In this document: positions 3,239-41,781 of the stretch, piece after piece
Position numbering within the stretch: the first letter of the stretch is position 1
Layout: each line of letters begins with the position of its first letter
IMG/VR virus record: IMGVR_UViG_3300009155_000004
Span: 1-63,610 of that record
Reading direction: 5' to 3' (one strand)
Length of the DNA stretch: 63,610 nt
Origin: a virus
Translations under genes and position numbers: made by a program
Notes under the pieces: model-generated
What the model was told of the DNA's origin: nothing
Database searches by the model: none
The model's input: only the letters and a program-made list of their open reading frames with translations

Positions 3239-4639
3239 TTAGTTACGGAACAAGAAGAAGTTGTTAGCTCCCAAGGTGCACAATGCACGCTCAGACAAGA
3301 AATGAACTTGCATAGCATCCAAGTCACTAGTAGTTGCACCACCAGCAGAACCAGTGATCCAAGTTTTGTAACGACGATCTTCAGTTTCGCTAGCTCTGTA
3401 ACGAACGTGCAAGAATGGACGTTTAGCGTTCTTACCTAACACTTGATCATAAACGCTGGTAGAACCTGCTGGCACCAACACACCATTTACAACACCACCA
3501 TTAAGACCACCACGCAAAGTAGCATCGTTAAGGTATTTCCAGTCAGTTTTGTAGAACTCATAGCTACCACGTTTGAAGCCTTTGAAGCCCAAAGTTAATG
3601 CCATGTTCTCGTCATTGTCAAACAAACCAAAGCTTGTTCCACCTGCACCATAGCTGTTTTGAGCAGCCAACATATCATCAATATCCAAAGAGAATTGACG
3701 ATTGATGAATAATGCGTTTTCTTGGATAGCTCCTTGTTTGTCAAGACGTTGCAAGATAGCATCAAAGTCAGCTAATGCAGTTGGGTTTCCACCGCCCCAC
3801 ACGTTACCACGGCTATTAACAACGTAGAATAAACCTTCAGAACCCTTGTTTCCAACGTCACCAGTAGCTGCGATAGCACCAGAGTTAGCTTCAGCAGGAA
3901 CTGCTTCAACCATAGACATTTCCAAATAGTCATCAAAACGTAAACGAGTTTCGTGCTCTGATTTCAAATACCACAAGTAACCTGTAGCACCGTTCTCAGT
4001 AGTAACTTCTACCCATCCGATTTGAGCCATGTCAGAACCAGAAACTTCATATTTGTCTTTGATAATGATTGGGCTGTTAGAGAAGATATCATCTTGTCCT
4101 TCCAAAGAACCAGTCATACCATTAGAACCTTTTTTGAATTCAGAACCGTAAACAAATGCAGTAGATGCAGTTGATACAGGGATAGTTTGTCCACCACCAG
4201 CATAGTATGCTACAGTGAAAGTCAAACCACTAACAGCAGTGATAATTGCTTTGTCACTTTGAGTTCCACCTGCATTCCTAGATAAGAATACAGTTTGACC
4301 AACTCTGAAGTTACAAGCAGTGATACCTGAGTCAGCTACAGTCCAAACAGCAGTATCATCACTAGCAGCACCAGCTGAAGTACAGCTAGAATACTTTGTG
4401 TGCAAACGACCTTGTTCAGCCCATTTGATTAAGTCGGAGTTACTTGGCATCTCCGCACCGACCATGCGTAAGAAAGATGCAATTGAACGATTACCATATC
4501 TTTCAAATTCTTTCTCGTAAGTATCAGGAAGATACTGGTTCAAGAAGTTGAAGTTGGTAATATAGTTAGTAGGCAATGTTGCCTTTACTGATGAGGGGGT
4601 TAATGCGAAACCCGGACTCGATAATACTGAACCAGCCAT
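3239..4639 (-). CDS. Major capsid protein (466 aa)
   Basis: It forms the shell of the head. The call rests on length, on the order portal, scaffold, this gene, and on its expression signals: an extremely A-rich leader and its own terminator, as expected for the most abundant virion protein. The N-terminus contains FLRMVGAEMPSNSDLIKWAE followed by QGRLH, a segment I associate with capsid proteins of Bacteroidota podoviruses including crAss-like phages. Residues about 85-150 are Thr/Ser/Gly-rich and may be an inserted surface domain (inference). An HK97-type fold is expected from the family, not seen directly. Confidence 0.85.
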   Translation of the reverse strand: MAGSVLSSPGFALTPSSVKATLPTNYITNFNFLNQYLPDTYEKEFERYGNRSIASFLRMVGAEMPSNSDLIKWAEQGRLHTKYSSCTSAGAASDDTAVWTVADSGITACNFRVGQTVFLSRNAGGTQSDKAIITAVSGLTFTVAYYAGGGQTIPVSTASTAFVYGSEFKKGSNGMTGSLEGQDDIFSNSPIIIKDKYEVSGSDMAQIGWVEVTTENGATGYLWYLKSEHETRLRFDDYLEMSMVEAVPAEANSGAIAATGDVGNKGSEGLFYVVNSRGNVWGGGNPTALADFDAILQRLDKQGAIQENALFINRQFSLDIDDMLAAQNSYGAGGTSFGLFDNDENMALTLGFKGFKRGSYEFYKTDWKYLNDATLRGGLNGGVVNGVLVPAGSTSVYDQVLGKNAKRPFLHVRYRASETEDRRYKTWITGSAGGATTSDLDAMQVHFLSERALCTLGANNFFLFRN

Positions 4640-5796: not shown

Positions 5797-8229
5797 TTAT
5801 TTTGGTTCAAATTGAGCCAAATCAAAACCATCTAAAGAGTCTTCGCTTGATTCAAAATCAATGGCAGGCAAGTCTTTCTTGCGTTGCTCAATTAACTTTG
5901 ATTGGTGTGTGCTTTGCATATCAATACGCTTGTCTTTAGCCATTTCTTTTTGCTCGTCAATTGTCTTAGCTGCATTTACCTCTAATCCTTTCAACTGCAT
6001 ATTCATCTCAAACTCCATTTGCATTAACTGCATTTTAAGTTGAGCTTCTTGCTTCATCTTCTCAATCTCAAACGCTGACTCGGCTTGCTTTAATTGCGCC
6101 TTCGCTTGGAATTCTGCCTGAACCTTTTGCAAGTTAGCTTGTGCTGCTGCCTGAGTAGATTGGATATTAGACTGCGTTTGCATCTCCATCTTTTGTTGCT
6201 CACGCTCCATGTCCTGCTCTTGCTTCTTCCTGCGTTTTAACTTAAGAAGCTCATTTGCTAATTTAATATTGCGAATTTCACGAATATCAATAGCGTCTTC
6301 AAGATCAATCTGGTCACGTTGTAGCGACGCTTGGATGTTAGCCTCAAGCTGAGACTTCTCCTCTTCGTCCGGAGATACTTCAATAAAGATACCAAAATCA
6401 TGTAAGTATAAGTCTTTTACGTCTTCCAATACACCAACATTGTACTTACCAATTTGGTTTATAAATTCTTCTTTGAACTCAGAATACTCAAGCACGTCAG
6501 AAATACGGCAAGATAATGCCTCCGCCAATCTCTTCGTAATGAATAATGTTCCGTCTAAGATATGTCTTGTTGCTGTGTTTGAATTAAGTGCAGCTAATTT
6601 CTGTACGCCAACCAATGATCTTGGATCAGGCATAGAGCCGTCTCTTGCTTCGTTTAAGCCAGTTACGTCCCTAATCATACTCAAGTAGTGGTTGTAAGAA
6701 TTAATCAACGCTGTGATCTTTCCTTGGCCGCTATTTGAGTTTAACTCTTGAATTGGAATCTTGCCTTGGTTGAACTCGCCATCTTGATTGTAAGAACGAC
6801 CAATGACACTACCCGTTTGGAAGTATAACTTAAGCGCGTCCTCTGGATTATAGTTTGCGCCATTACCCAAGTCAACATCATTCATACCATCGGCATCAAT
6901 GTATACACCATCTGGCACAACCTTAGCAATAACCTGTTGTAATTTAAGATGCGTAATTTGAATCAAATCAGCAAACGTAATCATACGCTTAACTAATGAC
7001 TCAATCACACCCTTGTACATTCTTGGGGCCATTGCGATATAGTTAGGCAAAGCATACTGCGTCGCAGACTTTGGTCTAACCATGTTCTTGCTGAGTTCCC
7101 ACTTAAGCAAATAGCTTGAGCCTAACACCATGACACCTTCGTACCATACGTCAATTCTCTTTTCTATTTTCTCAAATCTTTCGTCAGTCCCAGTTGGTGG
7201 GTTAAAGTTTTCATCCTTGCGAATGACACGAGTACCACCATTATCCAAAAACTTCTTCTTGTAGACAAATTTCTTATCGGTTTTATAATTGAAATATAAT
7301 AATGTTACGACATCTCTGTCGAATAATGTGTTCCTGTATGGTCTAATAATGTTGTACTGAGTGAACCAGATACTACTTAACTTAGATATTTTGTCAAGCT
7401 CCTCTTTGGTAATGGTCGGGTCAATCTTAATTAACTCACCAATATGTACTTGCTTGATCTCTCCATAGTAGAAGCAGTCGTCAAATGTTGGAGACTCTGT
7501 GTATGAATAAACAACAGACGCAGGGTCAACGTACTCAACCCTAATGCCGGCTCCTGCTTGGAACGTGTGTTTAACCATTCCGATACCCAAGACAGTCATG
7601 TCATAATCAACACGCCTTTTAACTTCTTGGTATCTGTTCTGTTCAAACAATGTATCAATCGCAATCTCTTCAGCAATCTCAATGGCAGGCTTATAGTTAA
7701 GCTGCATATGAAGATTAAGCTCTTGATCGTTCTCTGGCAAATCTTTAGGATTCGTATTGAAGGCATTGATACCAAATTGTTCTTGCGTTTGCACCAAGAA
7801 GTCTTTTGCTACCATATCCTTCTCAATCATCTCTTTGTAACCTGAACGCTTGCCGGCAGCTAACTCATCTTGAGCAAATGCCTTTACTGCGTACATTCTG
7901 TCAGACATACCGTTAACAACGATATCGACAAACTTAGGGATAATTGGAACTGGTTCCCAGTTAAGATTCAAGTAAGATAAGTCACCGTCAACGGCTAACT
8001 CATCCTTGTACTTTTGTACAGGCTGTTCACCACGAGCGTATAGTCTTAGCTTATGAAACTCAATCCACTGGTTGTAGAAACGACAAGAATTAGTATCTCT
8101 TCTGAACCATTCGTAAGAGATGGCTCGTCCCACTTTGATACCATATTCCTTGGACGCTTTTTCTGCATCAGTAGCCAGCTGACTCGGAAATGATGTTGGG
8201 CTTATTAATTCTTGAGTTGTTTGATCCAT
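5797..8229 (-). CDS. Portal protein (810 aa)
   Basis: It forms the dodecameric DNA gateway at the head vertex. Evidence is size, the position between TerL (overlapping by one base at 8229) and scaffold, and a long C-terminal coiled coil (about residues 640-770) very rich in Gln, Glu, Lys and Met (REQQKMEMQTQSNIQSTQAA), as in the barrel domains of podovirus portals. The body contains EYVDPASVVYSY and GLNEARDGSMPDPRSL, a segment typical of Bacteroidota phage portals as I recall them. No promoter was seen in front, so it is read with terL. Confidence 0.9.
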   Translation of the reverse strand: MDQTTQELISPTSFPSQLATDAEKASKEYGIKVGRAISYEWFRRDTNSCRFYNQWIEFHKLRLYARGEQPVQKYKDELAVDGDLSYLNLNWEPVPIIPKFVDIVVNGMSDRMYAVKAFAQDELAAGKRSGYKEMIEKDMVAKDFLVQTQEQFGINAFNTNPKDLPENDQELNLHMQLNYKPAIEIAEEIAIDTLFEQNRYQEVKRRVDYDMTVLGIGMVKHTFQAGAGIRVEYVDPASVVYSYTESPTFDDCFYYGEIKQVHIGELIKIDPTITKEELDKISKLSSIWFTQYNIIRPYRNTLFDRDVVTLLYFNYKTDKKFVYKKKFLDNGGTRVIRKDENFNPPTGTDERFEKIEKRIDVWYEGVMVLGSSYLLKWELSKNMVRPKSATQYALPNYIAMAPRMYKGVIESLVKRMITFADLIQITHLKLQQVIAKVVPDGVYIDADGMNDVDLGNGANYNPEDALKLYFQTGSVIGRSYNQDGEFNQGKIPIQELNSNSGQGKITALINSYNHYLSMIRDVTGLNEARDGSMPDPRSLVGVQKLAALNSNTATRHILDGTLFITKRLAEALSCRISDVLEYSEFKEEFINQIGKYNVGVLEDVKDLYLHDFGIFIEVSPDEEEKSQLEANIQASLQRDQIDLEDAIDIREIRNIKLANELLKLKRRKKQEQDMEREQQKMEMQTQSNIQSTQAAAQANLQKVQAEFQAKAQLKQAESAFEIEKMKQEAQLKMQLMQMEFEMNMQLKGLEVNAAKTIDEQKEMAKDKRIDMQSTHQSKLIEQRKKDLPAIDFESSEDSLDGFDLAQFEPK

Positions 8230-17404: not shown

Positions 17405-17630
17405 TCACACCGTACACCGCGCCATCAATGCGCACCTGATGCCCATTGCGCTTGTCAAAGTATATCATGTCGCCCTCTTTTACTGCCAGCACCTCGTTGC
17501 CAACACTCACAACTGTGCCTTTGCCGTAGCGCATCTCGTCATTCTCGACGTTTGTCAATAGCAAACCAGAGGAGGTCTTAGCCTCCTCGATGATTTGATT
17601 GATGATTATGTATTTATTTACAGCTCTCAT
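17367..17630 (-). CDS. groES: GroES co-chaperonin (87 aa)
   Basis: This is the heptameric lid of the GroEL chamber. It has the N-terminal strand MRAVNKYIIINQIIEE, the mobile loop AKTSSGLLLTN ending in the Leu-Leu-Leu contact that binds GroEL, then GKGTVVSVGNEVLAVKEGDM and a C-terminal strand ADVVVLLQA. At 87 residues it is slightly short (usual about 95). Its ATG overlaps the groEL stop (ATGA). The order groEL then groES is the reverse of bacterial operons. The two starts share the string ATGAGAGCT, which suggests local duplication around the junction. Confidence 0.93.
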   Translation of the reverse strand: MRAVNKYIIINQIIEEAKTSSGLLLTNVENDEMRYGKGTVVSVGNEVLAVKEGDMIYFDKRNGHQVRIDGAVYGVIKEADVVVLLQA

Positions 17631-19165
17631 TTAGCTCTCATGTTATAGATGATACAATTGGTCCCTAAGATTGTCGTAGATACACTCACAGCGTTCTCTA
17701 AGGCATTCTTTGTAACTTTTGAGGGGTCTATGACGCCCATCTCCTTTAAATCGCCTGTAGCGGCTGTTTTGACATTGTATCCAAGGCCCGTTTGTGCAAA
17801 ATTTTCTCTAATCACATCAGCATTGTCAACATTGATGCCTGCATTCTCTAAAATTATGTAGAATGGAGCCACAATTGACGCTGCCATAATCTTTCTGGCA
17901 ATACTATGCTTGTCTTTGGCCCACATTTTCTCGACAATTGACAGTAATGCGTACCCACCACCTGGCAGTATCCCCTCTTCAAGGGCTGCTTTGGTCGCGC
18001 ACACCGCGTCATCCACCCTGTCTTTCTTCTCTTTTTGCTCAATATCACTGCTTGCACCCACATAAATGACAGCAACACCACCTGCAAGGTTCGCAATGCG
18101 CTCTTCTTTGAACGCTGCATCGTCTGTTGTCATCCCTTTGATCTCTTCAATGCGAGCTTTGGCGCTTGCGCTGTCCTTTAGGATCACAACACTGGCATCT
18201 TTACCAACCACGACCTTATTTGCTTGACCAAGGTCACTAATTGTCATCAATGAGAAGTCATCACCCGTGTCATCAGTGATATACTTGCCGCCTGTCGCAA
18301 TTGCCAGGTCAGACATCAGGTCCTGCTTCTTATATCCAAATTGTGGAGGCAAGATCACTGCAACCTTTAATACTCCCTTCATCTTGTTAAGATTCAACGA
18401 GTTAAGCGCATTCTCGCCCATCTCAGAGATGATAAGTATGCTGCGATTCTGTCTGTGCACTTCTGCCAGAATGTGCTCAATGCTTTGTAGTGACGCTATT
18501 TCTTGATCTGAGATCAAGATGTACGGGTTCTCCAGCACAGCCTCTTGTCTCTTCTCGTCTGTCACCATGTACTTGCTTGAGTAGCCACGCTTGATGCGCA
18601 TCCCGTTCACCACCTCAGAGTATGTCATGCTTGTCGATGAGTTCTCAACAGTCACAGCGCCATCCTTGCCCACTTTAATGTACGCGTCAGCCACAATCTC
18701 TCCGATCTCTTTATCGTTGTTTGCAGATATTGTCGCCACGTCAAGCAAGCTGTCGTTTGTTACCGGCACAGCCATGTCGCTCAGGTCTTTGATAATCTCT
18801 TTTGATACTGCCACAATGTCTCTTAGCACAGATGGATCTTTCTCAATCCCTTCAGCGGTGTACGCGTCGATGATGGCCTCTGCGAGCACTAGGGCCGTTG
18901 AAGTTCCGTCTCCCGATATTGTCGCTGTCTTCTCGCTAGCTTCCTTCATCATTGTAACCGCAAGGTTCTCGATTGGATCGTCTAGCACAATTGACTTGGC
19001 AACAGTGACACCGTCCTTCGTTACAACAATACCACGTGTGTGATTCTCTGACTCAATCAGGACAGTCTGCCCCATTGGTCCTAATGTAGACTTGACCGCC
19101 TTCGCTATTTTGCGAACGCCACTCATCAGTCTATCTTGGTTAAATTCAATTTCTTTTACAATCAT
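17627..19165 (-). CDS. groEL: GroEL chaperonin (512 aa)
   Basis: An ATP-driven folding chamber. The ATP-binding signature TKDGVTVAKSIVLDDPIENL is near residue 50 and GDGTSTALVLAEAI near residue 85, including the catalytic Asp of GDGT. The equatorial return GILPGGGYALLSIVEK is near residue 390. It is shorter than bacterial GroEL (about 545) and lacks the Gly-Met tail, ending NCIIYNMRAK. It has its own promoter (19173-19180) right after a terminator, so it is expressed independently of the upstream genes. It presumably folds the phage capsid or a large tail protein; the actual substrate cannot be read from the sequence. Confidence 0.97.
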   Translation of the reverse strand: MIVKEIEFNQDRLMSGVRKIAKAVKSTLGPMGQTVLIESENHTRGIVVTKDGVTVAKSIVLDDPIENLAVTMMKEASEKTATISGDGTSTALVLAEAIIDAYTAEGIEKDPSVLRDIVAVSKEIIKDLSDMAVPVTNDSLLDVATISANNDKEIGEIVADAYIKVGKDGAVTVENSSTSMTYSEVVNGMRIKRGYSSKYMVTDEKRQEAVLENPYILISDQEIASLQSIEHILAEVHRQNRSILIISEMGENALNSLNLNKMKGVLKVAVILPPQFGYKKQDLMSDLAIATGGKYITDDTGDDFSLMTISDLGQANKVVVGKDASVVILKDSASAKARIEEIKGMTTDDAAFKEERIANLAGGVAVIYVGASSDIEQKEKKDRVDDAVCATKAALEEGILPGGGYALLSIVEKMWAKDKHSIARKIMAASIVAPFYIILENAGINVDNADVIRENFAQTGLGYNVKTAATGDLKEMGVIDPSKVTKNALENAVSVSTTILGTNCIIYNMRAK

Positions 19166-23269: not shown

Positions 23270-23636
23270 CACACTATTTCACCACTTGCACAACGCACAA
23301 ACAAACCTTATCGGTTTCAGTTACAACATTTACAACGGAGGCTTAAATCCTGACAAGGGCTACATGGTCGCAGTAAAAGGCTACGAGGAAACGGCACCAA
23401 AAGACAGCGACATTATCGCATTCGGTAGGGATTACTTTCTTCGCCACGCGACCAAACTAGCCGACCCACACTATTACATGGGCTGTTGGTACAACGACGG
23501 GGAATTTGTTTTCGACATCTCAGAAAATATCCAAACAAAGGAGGTCGCCATCGCCCTAGGTGAACAACAAGAGCAAAGTGCGATATGGGACTGCACTAGT
23601 GGTACCGAGTATCGCTTAATGCGAGAGTTCGATTAA
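23259..23636 (+). CDS. Unknown early protein (125 aa)
   Basis: The ATG at 23259 (MKHNTLFHHLHNAQTNLIGF) overlaps the end of the membrane gene. Mixed alpha/beta, acidic, with YNIYNGGLNPDKGYMVAVKG and FDISENIQTKEVAIALGEQQ. No family recognised with confidence. The tRNA-like minihelix starts 8 bases after its stop. Confidence 0.55.
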   Translation: MKHNTLFHHLHNAQTNLIGFSYNIYNGGLNPDKGYMVAVKGYEETAPKDSDIIAFGRDYFLRHATKLADPHYYMGCWYNDGEFVFDISENIQTKEVAIALGEQQEQSAIWDCTSGTEYRLMREFD

Positions 23637-23643
23637 TCACCCA

Positions 23644-23691
23644 TCCCAAGCCATAGGAATGCCGTCGGTTCGAGTCCGACCTTGGGAACCA
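23644..23691 (+). ncRNA. tRNA-like minihelix (acceptor stem, T-arm, CCA)
   Basis: A perfect 7-bp acceptor stem (TCCCAAG 23644-23650 with CTTGGGA 23681-23687) encloses a 13-base linker and a perfect canonical T-arm (GTCGG-TTCGAGT-CCGAC, 23664-23680), followed by a discriminator A and encoded CCA (23688-23691). D- and anticodon arms are absent. The CCA ends 2 bases before the ATG of the next gene. All bases of the tRNA 3' half, including the T-loop, are standard, so chance is unlikely. It could be an RNase P/RNase Z processing signal in the early message, a tRNA mimic, or a relic. Confidence 0.75.
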
Positions 23692-23693
23692 CT

Positions 23694-23954
23694 ATGAATA
23701 AATTACATCAAATCAACAAGGCGCAAAGGTCACTAGGTGCTGACTTTATGCAAGGATTAATTAACAACGGACAAGCATGGCAAATGGAAGGCTCTATGGG
23801 TCGCCAATGTATGGATGCATTACGTTCGGGCATGTGTATGTTACCTAAGAAGGCATTTACTGATGCTTATGGGAATAGGGTACCTAGCCGTGACGAACTA
23901 AAGCAAGGAAGCATGGGAACCTATGTAAACACTTTAAACTATTATAACATATGA
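23694..23954 (+). CDS. Unknown early protein behind the minihelix (86 aa)
   Basis: The ATG at 23694 (MNKLHQINKAQRSLGADFMQ) is the first after the CCA of the minihelix; an in-frame TTG upstream lies inside the RNA element and is rejected. The protein is helical with Met/Gly-rich parts (EGSMGRQCMDALRSGMCMLP). Cleavage at the tRNA-like 3' end would give this gene a 2-base leader. No family recognised. Confidence 0.6.
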   Translation: MNKLHQINKAQRSLGADFMQGLINNGQAWQMEGSMGRQCMDALRSGMCMLPKKAFTDAYGNRVPSRDELKQGSMGTYVNTLNYYNI

Positions 23955-24990: not shown

Positions 24991-25314
24991 ATGATTACTA
25001 AACAAGATATTTTAGACGTGGCACTACAATTAGAGATGCCAATTACTGACAAGCAAATAAATTACGTTTTAGAGAACTATTCTGAGACGGGCGAAATTTG
25101 GAACGTACAAGTTGAAGACTTGTTATACCAATGCGAACCAAAAGTTTGCGACATCACGGGTGAAACCATGACTGAGGGATGGGTTGCCAATGATGGCGAA
25201 ATGTACTTCAAGTACGAGAAAGATGCCCTTGCATGGTGCATTGAGAATGGCTACGAAAGTATTGAGGATGCCTACAACGAAGAGGCAATCTACTATACTG
25301 AGTGGGAGGATTAA
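24991..25314 (+). CDS. Acidic protein with CDxTG motif, phage-conserved type (107 aa)
   Basis: Helical acidic N-terminus, then CDITGETMTEGWVANDGEMY and FKYEKDALAWC, a pattern I associate with short proteins of Bacteroidota phages. One CxxxG and a late Cys could bind metal. The gene ends just before the structured RNA, which may therefore be its 3' trailer. Confidence 0.55.
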   Translation: MITKQDILDVALQLEMPITDKQINYVLENYSETGEIWNVQVEDLLYQCEPKVCDITGETMTEGWVANDGEMYFKYEKDALAWCIENGYESIEDAYNEEAIYYTEWED

Positions 25315-25318
25315 TACA

Positions 25319-25562
25319 TTGCTCTAATGGGGTAACTCCCCATTAAAGCAACCAAGAAGTTCTTTGACGTACGGGGCGAATTAAGTGTAACAACTTAATA
25401 GGTGGGTGCTAACAATCCGTTAGCGTGAATTGACGAGGACTAGTCAATACCTACTGAAGGCGAGAATACATGGTTGCGAGAGTCCCTCGCATTGAATGAG
25501 CACGGAACAACTCAGCCAACCACACGACAAGCGCAGAGCGATACTTCGGTGTATCCGTGTGG
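25319..25562 (+). ncRNA. Unrecognised structured RNA with a three-way junction
   Basis: Stems in order: TTGCT/AGCAA plus TAATGGGG/CCCCATTA (25319-25351, 5-base loop); ATTAAGT/ACTTAAT (25380-25399); a three-way junction closed by TAGGT/ACCTA (25399-25403 with 25449-25453) that encloses GCTAAC/GTTAGC (25408-25424) and ATTGAC/GTCAAT (25429-25448); GCGAG/CTCGC (25476-25490); CCACACG/CGTGTGG (25520-25562) with an inner GATAC/GTATC stem. No open frame covers the block. A boxA-like string TTCTTTGAC lies at 25361-25369. It does not match a class I can name. Confidence 0.7.
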
Positions 25563-25611
25563 GCAACTTAACACTAAATTATAACAAACACACAACACTA
25601 AAATATAACTT

Positions 25612-25839
25612 ATGAACCTATTTAGAATTAACACCACGGCATTTCACGAGGAAGATTTCACAATCTACACCGACTTAAACAAAGAGCAAGTTACTGACAT
25701 CATCACACCCATTGTAAAAGATGAACGTGATGGTGGCTACGGTTACTACAACGACGATTTGGTTAGCGCATTAAAGAACGCATATCCAAACAACTTTATC
25801 TCACAACGATACAACGAACCTGAAATGATATCAATATGA
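25612..25839 (+). CDS. Unknown early protein (75 aa)
   Basis: Frame MNLFRINTTAFHEEDFTIYT, continuing with KEQVTDIITPIVKDERDGGY and a Tyr/Asn-rich end. A 50-base AT-rich leader separates it from the structured RNA. Overlaps the next gene by ATGA. Confidence 0.55.
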   Translation: MNLFRINTTAFHEEDFTIYTDLNKEQVTDIITPIVKDERDGGYGYYNDDLVSALKNAYPNNFISQRYNEPEMISI

Positions 25840-40977: not shown

Positions 40978-41099
40978 TTAGCCCCGTTGATCAGGGGATC
41001 GTAAAATACAGCAAGCCTCTTGACAATGCTCAACGCAGCTGTTCTCATCGTATAGGAGATAGGGTTAGCCTTCCCGACATCGTTCAAAAAGGCAAACAT

Positions 41100-41186
41100 A
41101 GTCAGGTGGCGAAAATAGGAAGACGCTACTCACTATTGAATGTGAGTGATGTAACAACAATACAGGTTCGAGTCCTGTCCTGACTA
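41100..41186 (+). tRNA. Class II tRNA-like gene 1, Leu/Ser type, aberrant anticodon loop
   Basis: Perfect 7-bp acceptor AGTCAGG/CCTGACT (41100-41106, 41179-41185), D-arm GCG-AAAATAGGAAGA-CGC as in tRNA-Leu, anticodon stem CTCAC/GTGAG with an 8-base loop TATTGAAT, a variable region of about 15 bases and a standard T-arm ACAGG-TTCGAGT-CCTGT. Discriminator A is followed by CAC, so CCA is not encoded. If T136 is base 33, the anticodon would be TGA (Ser), but the D-arm looks Leu-like; identity is open. Confidence 0.6.
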
Positions 41187-41325
41187 CACCGGTAATGGGA
41201 AGGAAGCCCACGTTAAACTAAACCATTCTTGGCTGTCGAGCCAGGCGATTCGGTGTACCTAGATGTAAAATTGGTGCTATTGGTCTCTGAAGAACAGGGA
41301 ACACGGTTAACTGCAAGATAAGTTA

Positions 41326-41366
41326 TGACAACGGGGAAAGACCCGTACATCGGAGAGTGGCGGAAG
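41326..41366 (+). repeat. Leader unit copy A
   Basis: Forty bases starting TGACAACGGGGAAAGACCCG, containing the hairpin ACGGG-GAAAGA-CCCGT and running into the 5' end of tRNA-like gene 2. Copy B at 41591-41630 differs at about four positions. Confidence 0.7.
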
Positions 41367-41476
41367 GTTAGGGATGTCCCTGACGTGTTAGACGCTGCTA
41401 GCTAAATATAGCAATTTGGGATTAGCTCTCTAACCATAGAGTGCCCAAAATACAGGTTAGAGTCCTGTCTCTCTGG
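41351..41476 (+). tRNA. tRNA-like gene 2 with expanded D-loop and variable arm
   Basis: Acceptor CGGAGAG/CTCTCTG (7 bp, one G-T) and T-arm ACAGG-TTAGAGT-CCTGT are standard. The D-stem GCG/CGC (41360-41362, 41393-41395) holds a 30-base loop with an extra small hairpin GGGA/TCCC. Stem TGCTA/TAGCA has an 8-base loop GCTAAATA (TAA, a Leu anticodon, is inside). A long variable arm TTTGGG/CCCAAA (41415-41420, 41444-41449) contains an inner hairpin. Total 126 bases, far above a normal 85-90. Confidence 0.45.
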
Positions 41477-41485
41477 CCGTACCAG

Positions 41486-41532
41486 ATGCAACAATAAGAA
41501 TGACGGACGTGTTGCATAAGATGGTTGTCCGT
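41486..41532 (+). ncRNA. H-type pseudoknot between tRNA-like genes 2 and 3
   Basis: Stem 1 ATGCAAC (41486-41492) with GTTGCAT (41511-41517); stem 2 ACGGAC (41503-41508), inside loop 1, with GTCCGT (41527-41532). Both are perfect. It may belong to a larger RNA that includes the neighbouring tRNA-like parts. Confidence 0.6.
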
Positions 41533-41590
41533 ACCTATGTGCTACGGGTCGAACTGGGTTAAACAATAACTCGAGGAAGCATAAAAATCG

Positions 41591-41630
41591 TGACAACGGG
41601 GAAAGACCCGTGTATCAGAGAGTGGCGAAA
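41591..41630 (+). repeat. Leader unit copy B
   Basis: Second copy of the unit at 41326-41366, again ending in GAGAGTGGCG at the start of a tRNA-like gene. The paired 3' ends (ACAGGTT-GA-TCCTGTCTCTCTGG) are also shared, so genes 2 and 3 are an old duplication with diverged middles. Confidence 0.7.
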
Positions 41631-41713
41631 CCGAGCAGACGCATCAACACAATAAGTGAGGAATAGGCTATACGTTGACCCTATTCGTACAGGTTCGAAT
41701 CCTGTCTCTCTGG
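41616..41713 (+). tRNA. Class II tRNA-like gene 3
   Basis: Perfect acceptor CAGAGAG/CTCTCTG, Leu-type D-arm GCG-AAACCGAGCAGA-CGC, strong variable arm GAATAGG/CCTATTC (41661-41667, 41680-41686) and T-arm ACAGG-TTCGAAT-CCTGT. The anticodon arm is poor: the expected stem TCAAC/GTGAG has mismatches, while TCAAC also pairs perfectly with GTTGA at 41674-41678. Loop ACAATAA gives no clear anticodon. CCA is not encoded. Confidence 0.5.
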
Positions 41714-41723
41714 CAAATAACAA

Positions 41724-41741
41724 AGGGACATCAATGTCCCT
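41724..41741 (+). other. Hairpin after the tRNA-like block
   Basis: AGGGACA-TCAA-TGTCCCT, a perfect 7-bp stem without a T-run. Probably marks the 3' end or a processing boundary of the RNA block. Confidence 0.5.
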
Positions 41742-41781
41742 CTGTAACCATAATATCAGTTTAAACCTGACAAATGAACTA

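Follow-up and report, generated by a model that had tools for sequence, protein, structure and literature searches.

The window analysed here is the whole stretch of one virus record (63,610 nt; 63.6 kb). Its terminase shares 70% identity with that of the unclassified Podoviridae isolate MW202828 and 44% with those of Flavobacterium elemo phages, and the host is therefore probably a member of the Bacteroidota. Its early genes lie on the + strand, where two of the gaps between them hold structured RNA elements. The features of this region are the following.

23644–23687, + strand: second intercistronic RNA, tRNA-like, filling the gap from the stop at 23636 to the ATG at 23694
24991–25314, + strand: upstream ORF (107 aa), neighbour of the large RNA in 4/4 members
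25315–25566, + strand: structured RNA element, whole (~250 nt), delimited by a four-sequence alignment, the covariance model R1 and z-scores
25319–25351, + strand: 5′ hairpin H1 (8 + 5 bp, one internal mismatch), with compensatory pairs U-A to G-C and G-C to A-U
25359–25365, + strand: 5′ strand of a possible long-range helix, LR, pairing with 25495–25501
25374–25377 with 25482–25485, + strand: possible pseudoknot of GGGC with the H7 loop GUCC, invariant
25380–25399, + strand: hairpin H4 (7 bp), fully invariant
25401–25455, + strand: three-way junction P1/P2/P3, with one G-U to G-C change in P1
25475–25491, + strand: hairpin H7 (UGCGAG/CUCGCA), with one compensatory pair, G-C to A-U in L003
25520–25562, + strand: 3′ domain (7-bp outer stem, 13-nt 5′ linker, inner hairpin)
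25612–25839, + strand: downstream ORF (75 aa), with unrelated ORFs in its place in L002 and L003

The upstream ORF carries the C-terminal motif C..TGE.M.EGW...YFKY...YYTEWE and has homologues at about 40 phage loci as well as in gp051 of Cellulophaga phage phi38:1. Directly behind it, 4 nt after its stop, begins the RNA. A sequence-only reading had proposed a structured RNA at 25319–25562, in a stretch without an open frame; the block itself stood, with 25315–25566 as its best limits instead, and no open frame was found in it between the stop of the 107-aa ORF and the next ORF at 25612, nor does any + strand ORF fill it. The stretch as originally delimited folds at −77.5 kcal/mol, compared with −62.6 ± 4.2 in dinucleotide shuffles (z = −3.55), and only 1 of 200 shuffles folded as well. 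For the consensus fold of four homologues the value is −78.7 against −53.2 ± 5.0 in column shuffles (z = −5.1; 0/200). The G+C content of the block is 47.6%, that of the genome 38.3%. Protein coding in some other frame was considered and ruled out: 1-nt indels among the homologues (alignment columns 45 and 156) would break any reading frame.

Three homologues of the RNA, L002, L003 and L006, were retrieved from IMG/VR by protein searches with the upstream ORF and by DNA patterns taken from the block. Together with the window they are 92–96% identical over ~252 nt, and a core of ~51 nt is invariant. The upstream ORF of L006 is only 66–68% identical to those of the other members; the RNAs of the window and L006 share 95.6% identity, compared with 55–94% at third codon positions of the neighbouring genes. 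Compensatory changes, whose absence would have counted against the structure, are present: four pairs are altered on both sides. H1 contains two of them, H7 and the inner 3′ hairpin one each, and the pair of the inner 3′ hairpin is broken in L003. Of 114 paired columns (57 nested-helix pairs), 10 vary, and the probability of four or more two-sided changes arising by chance is 3e-5 by a simple count that ignores the shared ancestry of changes, among four sequences that are close relatives and in which most pairs never vary.

Two further changes, G-U to G-C in P1 and C-G to U-G in the 3′ stem, keep the pairing on the + strand only, which favours an RNA over a DNA element. A role at the DNA level, in which the inverted repeats would mark an origin or a site of packaging or recombination, would suit the location 1.9 kb ahead of a gene whose product has a DnaA C-terminal domain (PF08299) and the changes of adjoining gene content in L002 and L003. 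Given the strand-specific pairing and the position from stop to start along the direction of transcription, which the other RNA elements share, we regard it as highly improbable.

The gene behind the RNA differs among window/L006, L002 and L003, while the gene before it is constant. The distance from the end of the RNA to the next ATG is ~20 nt in L002 and L003 and 45–50 nt in the window and L006. A leader, ATTATAACAAACACACAACACTAAAATATAA, is retained in the window (25567–25611), L002 (~1180–1215) and L003 (~2505–2540), and a small ORF between RNA and leader is variably present or absent among them; this combination suggests gene exchange beside the RNA.

Every stem of the sequence-only reading is found in the refined structure. 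The perfect 8-bp stem extended by 5 bp is H1; the three-way junction has the closing stem GGTGGGT/ACCTACT and the arms GCTAAC/GTTAGC and ATTGAC/GTCAAT; and CCACACG/CGTGTGG (25520–25526 with 25556–25562) forms the 7-bp stem close to the 3′ end. On the 3′ strand of this outer stem stacks directly the inner hairpin GATAC-TTCGGT-GTATC. The junction loops at 25414–25418 (AAUCC) and 25437–25441 may kiss through 3–5 bp. Two global folds compete, one closed by LR (6/7 pairs in the window; 7/7 in L002, L003 and L006), the other by a local helix, 25359–25363/25463–25467. The window's own sequence prefers the local closure, and L003 and L006 prefer LR; H7 and the GGGC/GUCC pseudoknot are compatible with both. 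LR, H4, P2 and P3 show no covariation in the four-sequence set, and the two folds are not told apart by the four homologues because most pairs are invariant.

The block matched no Rfam family at gathering thresholds, and at E ≤ 10 the only match was a chance one to MIR161. The earlier reading, which proposed no function, had not been able to match it to tmRNA, RNase P, group I/II introns or large phage RNAs. Neither ARAGORN nor Rfam found a tRNA or tmRNA in it, and no model of a hammerhead or other small ribozyme matched at E ≤ 10. Three further classes were tried and rejected: a group I or II intron (no Rfam match; the sequence behind the block is unconserved, with no exon continuation), a guide RNA (no hypervariable stretch among the four sequences) and a type III toxin-antitoxin system (no tandem repeats seen; the RNA lies behind, not before, the constant gene). 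The block is thus far supported, by every test available, as a real, conserved, structured RNA absent from known families, and on sequence evidence it is a new family without a counterpart in Rfam.

The family is also narrow, as far as the collections searched show. R1 found no further copy among 45 other related phage records (many partial) or at 38 phage loci where the upstream gene has a relative, and none in about 440 Bacteroidota genomes (45 + 395), in which the filters were stricter, only a few candidates were scored in each genome and the search was less sensitive. DNA patterns run over IMG/VR returned only L002, L003 and L006, an extra match in L249 being rejected as chance. A lax pattern gave at least 120 stretches in genome contigs, and none among the 80 matches listed fits R1; blastn against phages and plasmids gave only chance matches of 27–31 nt.

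The junction recalls that of purine-type riboswitches, with its two 6-bp arms and loops that could pair, and an ORF follows the RNA on the same strand, so that a riboswitch or leader governing this gene was considered. Unlike in purine riboswitches, however, there is no Rfam match, the kissing pairs number 3 to 5 and are partly broken, and the downstream gene is unconserved; nor was a terminator seen. The conserved regulated gene expected behind a riboswitch is absent, and we consider cis-regulation of this kind quite improbable. With a constant upstream and an exchangeable downstream gene, an element of the boundary itself is a better fit than one that regulates the following gene in cis.

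We surveyed this boundary in other phages by inspecting the sequence after the stop of the homologous gene in two cultured Cellulophaga phages and at ~30 further loci. Where no element was recognised, the gap measured 3–36 nt, with the exception of L224 (48 nt, simple hairpin); the 14 nt recorded for L218 were measured to a spurious ORF inside its element. All larger gaps, the L224 hairpin aside, contain a structured RNA element. In phi38:1 (behind gp051) and Calle_1 it is a tRNA-Glu, confirmed by ARAGORN, with 7 nt between the stop and its start and, in phi38:1, ~20 nt between its end and the next CDS. L212, L213, L215, L216 and L218 hold tRNA-like elements without an anticodon arm. In L228 a hammerhead-like ribozyme (4247–4297, + strand) lies directly behind the stop of the homologous ORF, and its stem I includes the stop codon; the match to RF00163 (26.5 bits, E = 1.3e-4) is below the gathering score of 34, and all core residues are present. 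L227 carries a ~110-nt structured intergenic RNA (4250–4420) without an Rfam match at E ≤ 1.

Several side observations were made at these loci. In phi38:1, two near-identical tRNA-Glu genes (L284:4269–4341 and 6239–6311) lie between early genes, each ~20 nt before the next CDS, and Calle_1 likewise has two tRNA-Glu genes; ARAGORN additionally reported a doubtful tmRNA in phi38:1 (L284:7751–8110). The motif GAAGTC..TGCGACACCAA..CT.TTGCC occurs twice in L227, with a T run after the second copy. Strongly folding blocks lie between ORF calls in L218 (6186–6423; 238 nt, −73.9 kcal/mol) and L215 (1183–1436; 254 nt, −81.6), and an intergenic gap of the L218 phage (L278:9385–9452, − strand) gave a weak match to the skipping-rope RNA (RF02924; 24.0 bits, below gathering score).

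The tRNA-like elements consist of an acceptor-like stem, a D-loop-like linker and a T-arm, the anticodon arm being absent. The window has one of its own at 23644–23687, TCCCAAG-CCATAGGAATGCC-GTCGG-TTCGAGT-CCGAC-CTTGGGA followed by ACCA, that is, a 7-bp acceptor-like stem, a T-arm with the loop TTCGAGT and a 3′ ACCA. In L212, L213, L215, L216 and L218 such elements lie between small early genes, on the coding strand only, and L212, L215, L216 and L218 have more of them in other early gaps. Across 716 kb, 9 distinct elements with the T-loop consensus were found, all of them on the early strand, and shuffles gave none; since the elements were first gathered by a search that requires pairing, statistics on their pairing are partly circular. 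The tRNAs and tRNA-like elements mostly begin ~7–10 nt after the stop and often end 15–22 nt before the ATG. A second type, in L215, L216 and L218, has a loop such as AGCGAAA, AGCGATA or AGCGACA in place of the T-loop.

The large RNA resembles these elements in filling the space between stop and next ATG on the early strand. Its 3′ domain fits the tRNA-like descriptor (outer stem and stacked inner hairpin, with a linker on the 5′ side only) in the window, L006 and L002, with an A-C mismatch in L003; ~0.01 such fits are expected by chance in 250 nt, as calculated from the shuffle rate. The T-loop consensus TTCRANY and the GG in the linker are absent, the loop being TTCGGT and the linker ACAAGCGCAGAGC, and the tRNA-like covariance model R2 gave no match at E ≤ 10, for which reasons we do not class the 3′ domain as a tRNA-like element.

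A tRNA is released from its transcript by RNase P and RNase Z, which cut at its two ends, and a hammerhead cleaves itself. We therefore tentatively favour, at somewhat less than even confidence, a role for the RNA between cistrons, in cutting the early polycistronic mRNA or shielding its ends, mainly because tRNAs, tRNA-like elements and a hammerhead interchange with the RNA at one boundary. Cleavage at or beside the RNA would be carried out by host tRNA-type processing enzymes, by nucleases that recognise the fold or by the RNA itself; the upstream mRNA would gain a protected 3′ end, the downstream mRNA a short leader of its own, and a stable RNA of ~250 nt would be released. The cutting, the enzyme or catalysis behind it and its effect on expression are what we infer from the position and from the replacing elements. 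In favour of this reading are the conserved fold of a block that does not code for protein, with its compensatory changes, a gap that elsewhere holds elements known to be cut or similarly built, the ~20-nt spacing to the ATG in L002 and L003, near the 15–22 nt of the tRNAs and tRNA-like elements, and the tRNA-like element in a second early gap of the same genome. Against it, the RNA is 4–5 times as long as the other elements, in which H1, the three-way junction and H7 have no counterpart, its 3′ domain lacks the T-loop consensus and is unscored by R2 at E ≤ 10, and the next ATG is 45–50 nt away in the window and L006, not ~20. The near-invariant core, moreover, suggests a task more specific than spacing or cutting, and the 200 nt outside the 3′ domain may form a ribozyme, serve as a protein scaffold or act in trans.

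The last of these is the main rival to transcript processing: a stand-alone small RNA of the phage that would bind, for example, a host RNA-processing, translation or defence factor. We consider it possible, if rather unlikely, because the RNA is large and complex, with about ten helices and possibly two pseudoknots, and is more conserved than third codon positions of the neighbouring genes. No dedicated promoter or terminator was recognised near the block, so such an RNA would be co-transcribed with the upstream gene and freed from the longer transcript by processing; the two readings are thus compatible. No known family matches, and the searches of hundreds of Bacteroidota genomes and of other phages gave no copy, so that no target is suggested; a trans-acting role alone, moreover, leaves unexplained the swap with a tRNA, tRNA-like elements and a hammerhead at the same position. 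A further possibility, a self-cleaving ribozyme or an intron-like catalytic RNA of an undescribed type, would draw on the hammerhead-like ribozyme at the homologous position, the possible double-pseudoknot core and the strong sequence conservation. Yet no Rfam ribozyme or group I/II intron matches at E ≤ 10, the sequences behind the block differ between members without exon-like continuity, and catalysis cannot be predicted from sequence; we hold this to be decidedly unlikely.

Transcript processing by elements between cistrons is known in principle, as in mitochondria, where tRNAs between genes punctuate the transcript and are excised by RNase P and RNase Z. The likeness lies in an RNA that fills a stop-to-start gap where relatives carry a tRNA-Glu or a tRNA-like element, the difference in its not being a tRNA (ARAGORN, Rfam), in its severalfold greater length and in a 3′ domain with a non-canonical loop that R2 does not recognise. 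Hammerheads (RF00163) occur in phage intergenic regions, as does the L228 copy directly behind the homologous gene, but the window RNA has neither the hammerhead core nor an Rfam match. With orphan phage and bacterial RNAs such as GOLLD, ROOL and skipping-rope (RF02924) it shares being large, conserved, structured and phage-associated, but no similarity in sequence or model. In the open literature, searched with incomplete coverage, neither this RNA nor phage transcripts punctuated in this way were found described, and the 250-nt device and its place among interchangeable elements appear to be new.

A wider version of the processing reading, in which early operons of Bacteroidota podoviruses are punctuated by interchangeable RNA cutters (tRNAs, anticodon-less mimics and hammerheads) and the 250-nt RNA is a new such device, possibly a large catalytic RNA of an undescribed kind or one that scaffolds a host nuclease, is more speculative and, taken as a whole, unlikely. 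At one gene boundary, unrelated RNA elements substitute for each other; if all of them cut the transcript, these phages would use tRNA punctuation of the mitochondrial type with reduced tRNA mimics. This would be directly testable in the cultured Cellulophaga phages phi38:1 and Calle_1, and would help to explain how separate mRNAs arise from gene-dense phage operons in hosts whose signals of the classical kind are hard to recognise.

Elsewhere in the window, a gene for a GroEL-like chaperonin (17627–19165, − strand), identified by reading its translation, is encoded by the phage. A non-coding region at 40979–41760 (+ strand) holds ~3 tRNA-Leu/Ser-like genes of odd shape, with canonical T-arms and unusual anticodon regions; ARAGORN labels one stretch (41100–41187) 'tRNA-???', and a repeated block, GACAACGGGGAAAGACCCGT, precedes two of these genes.
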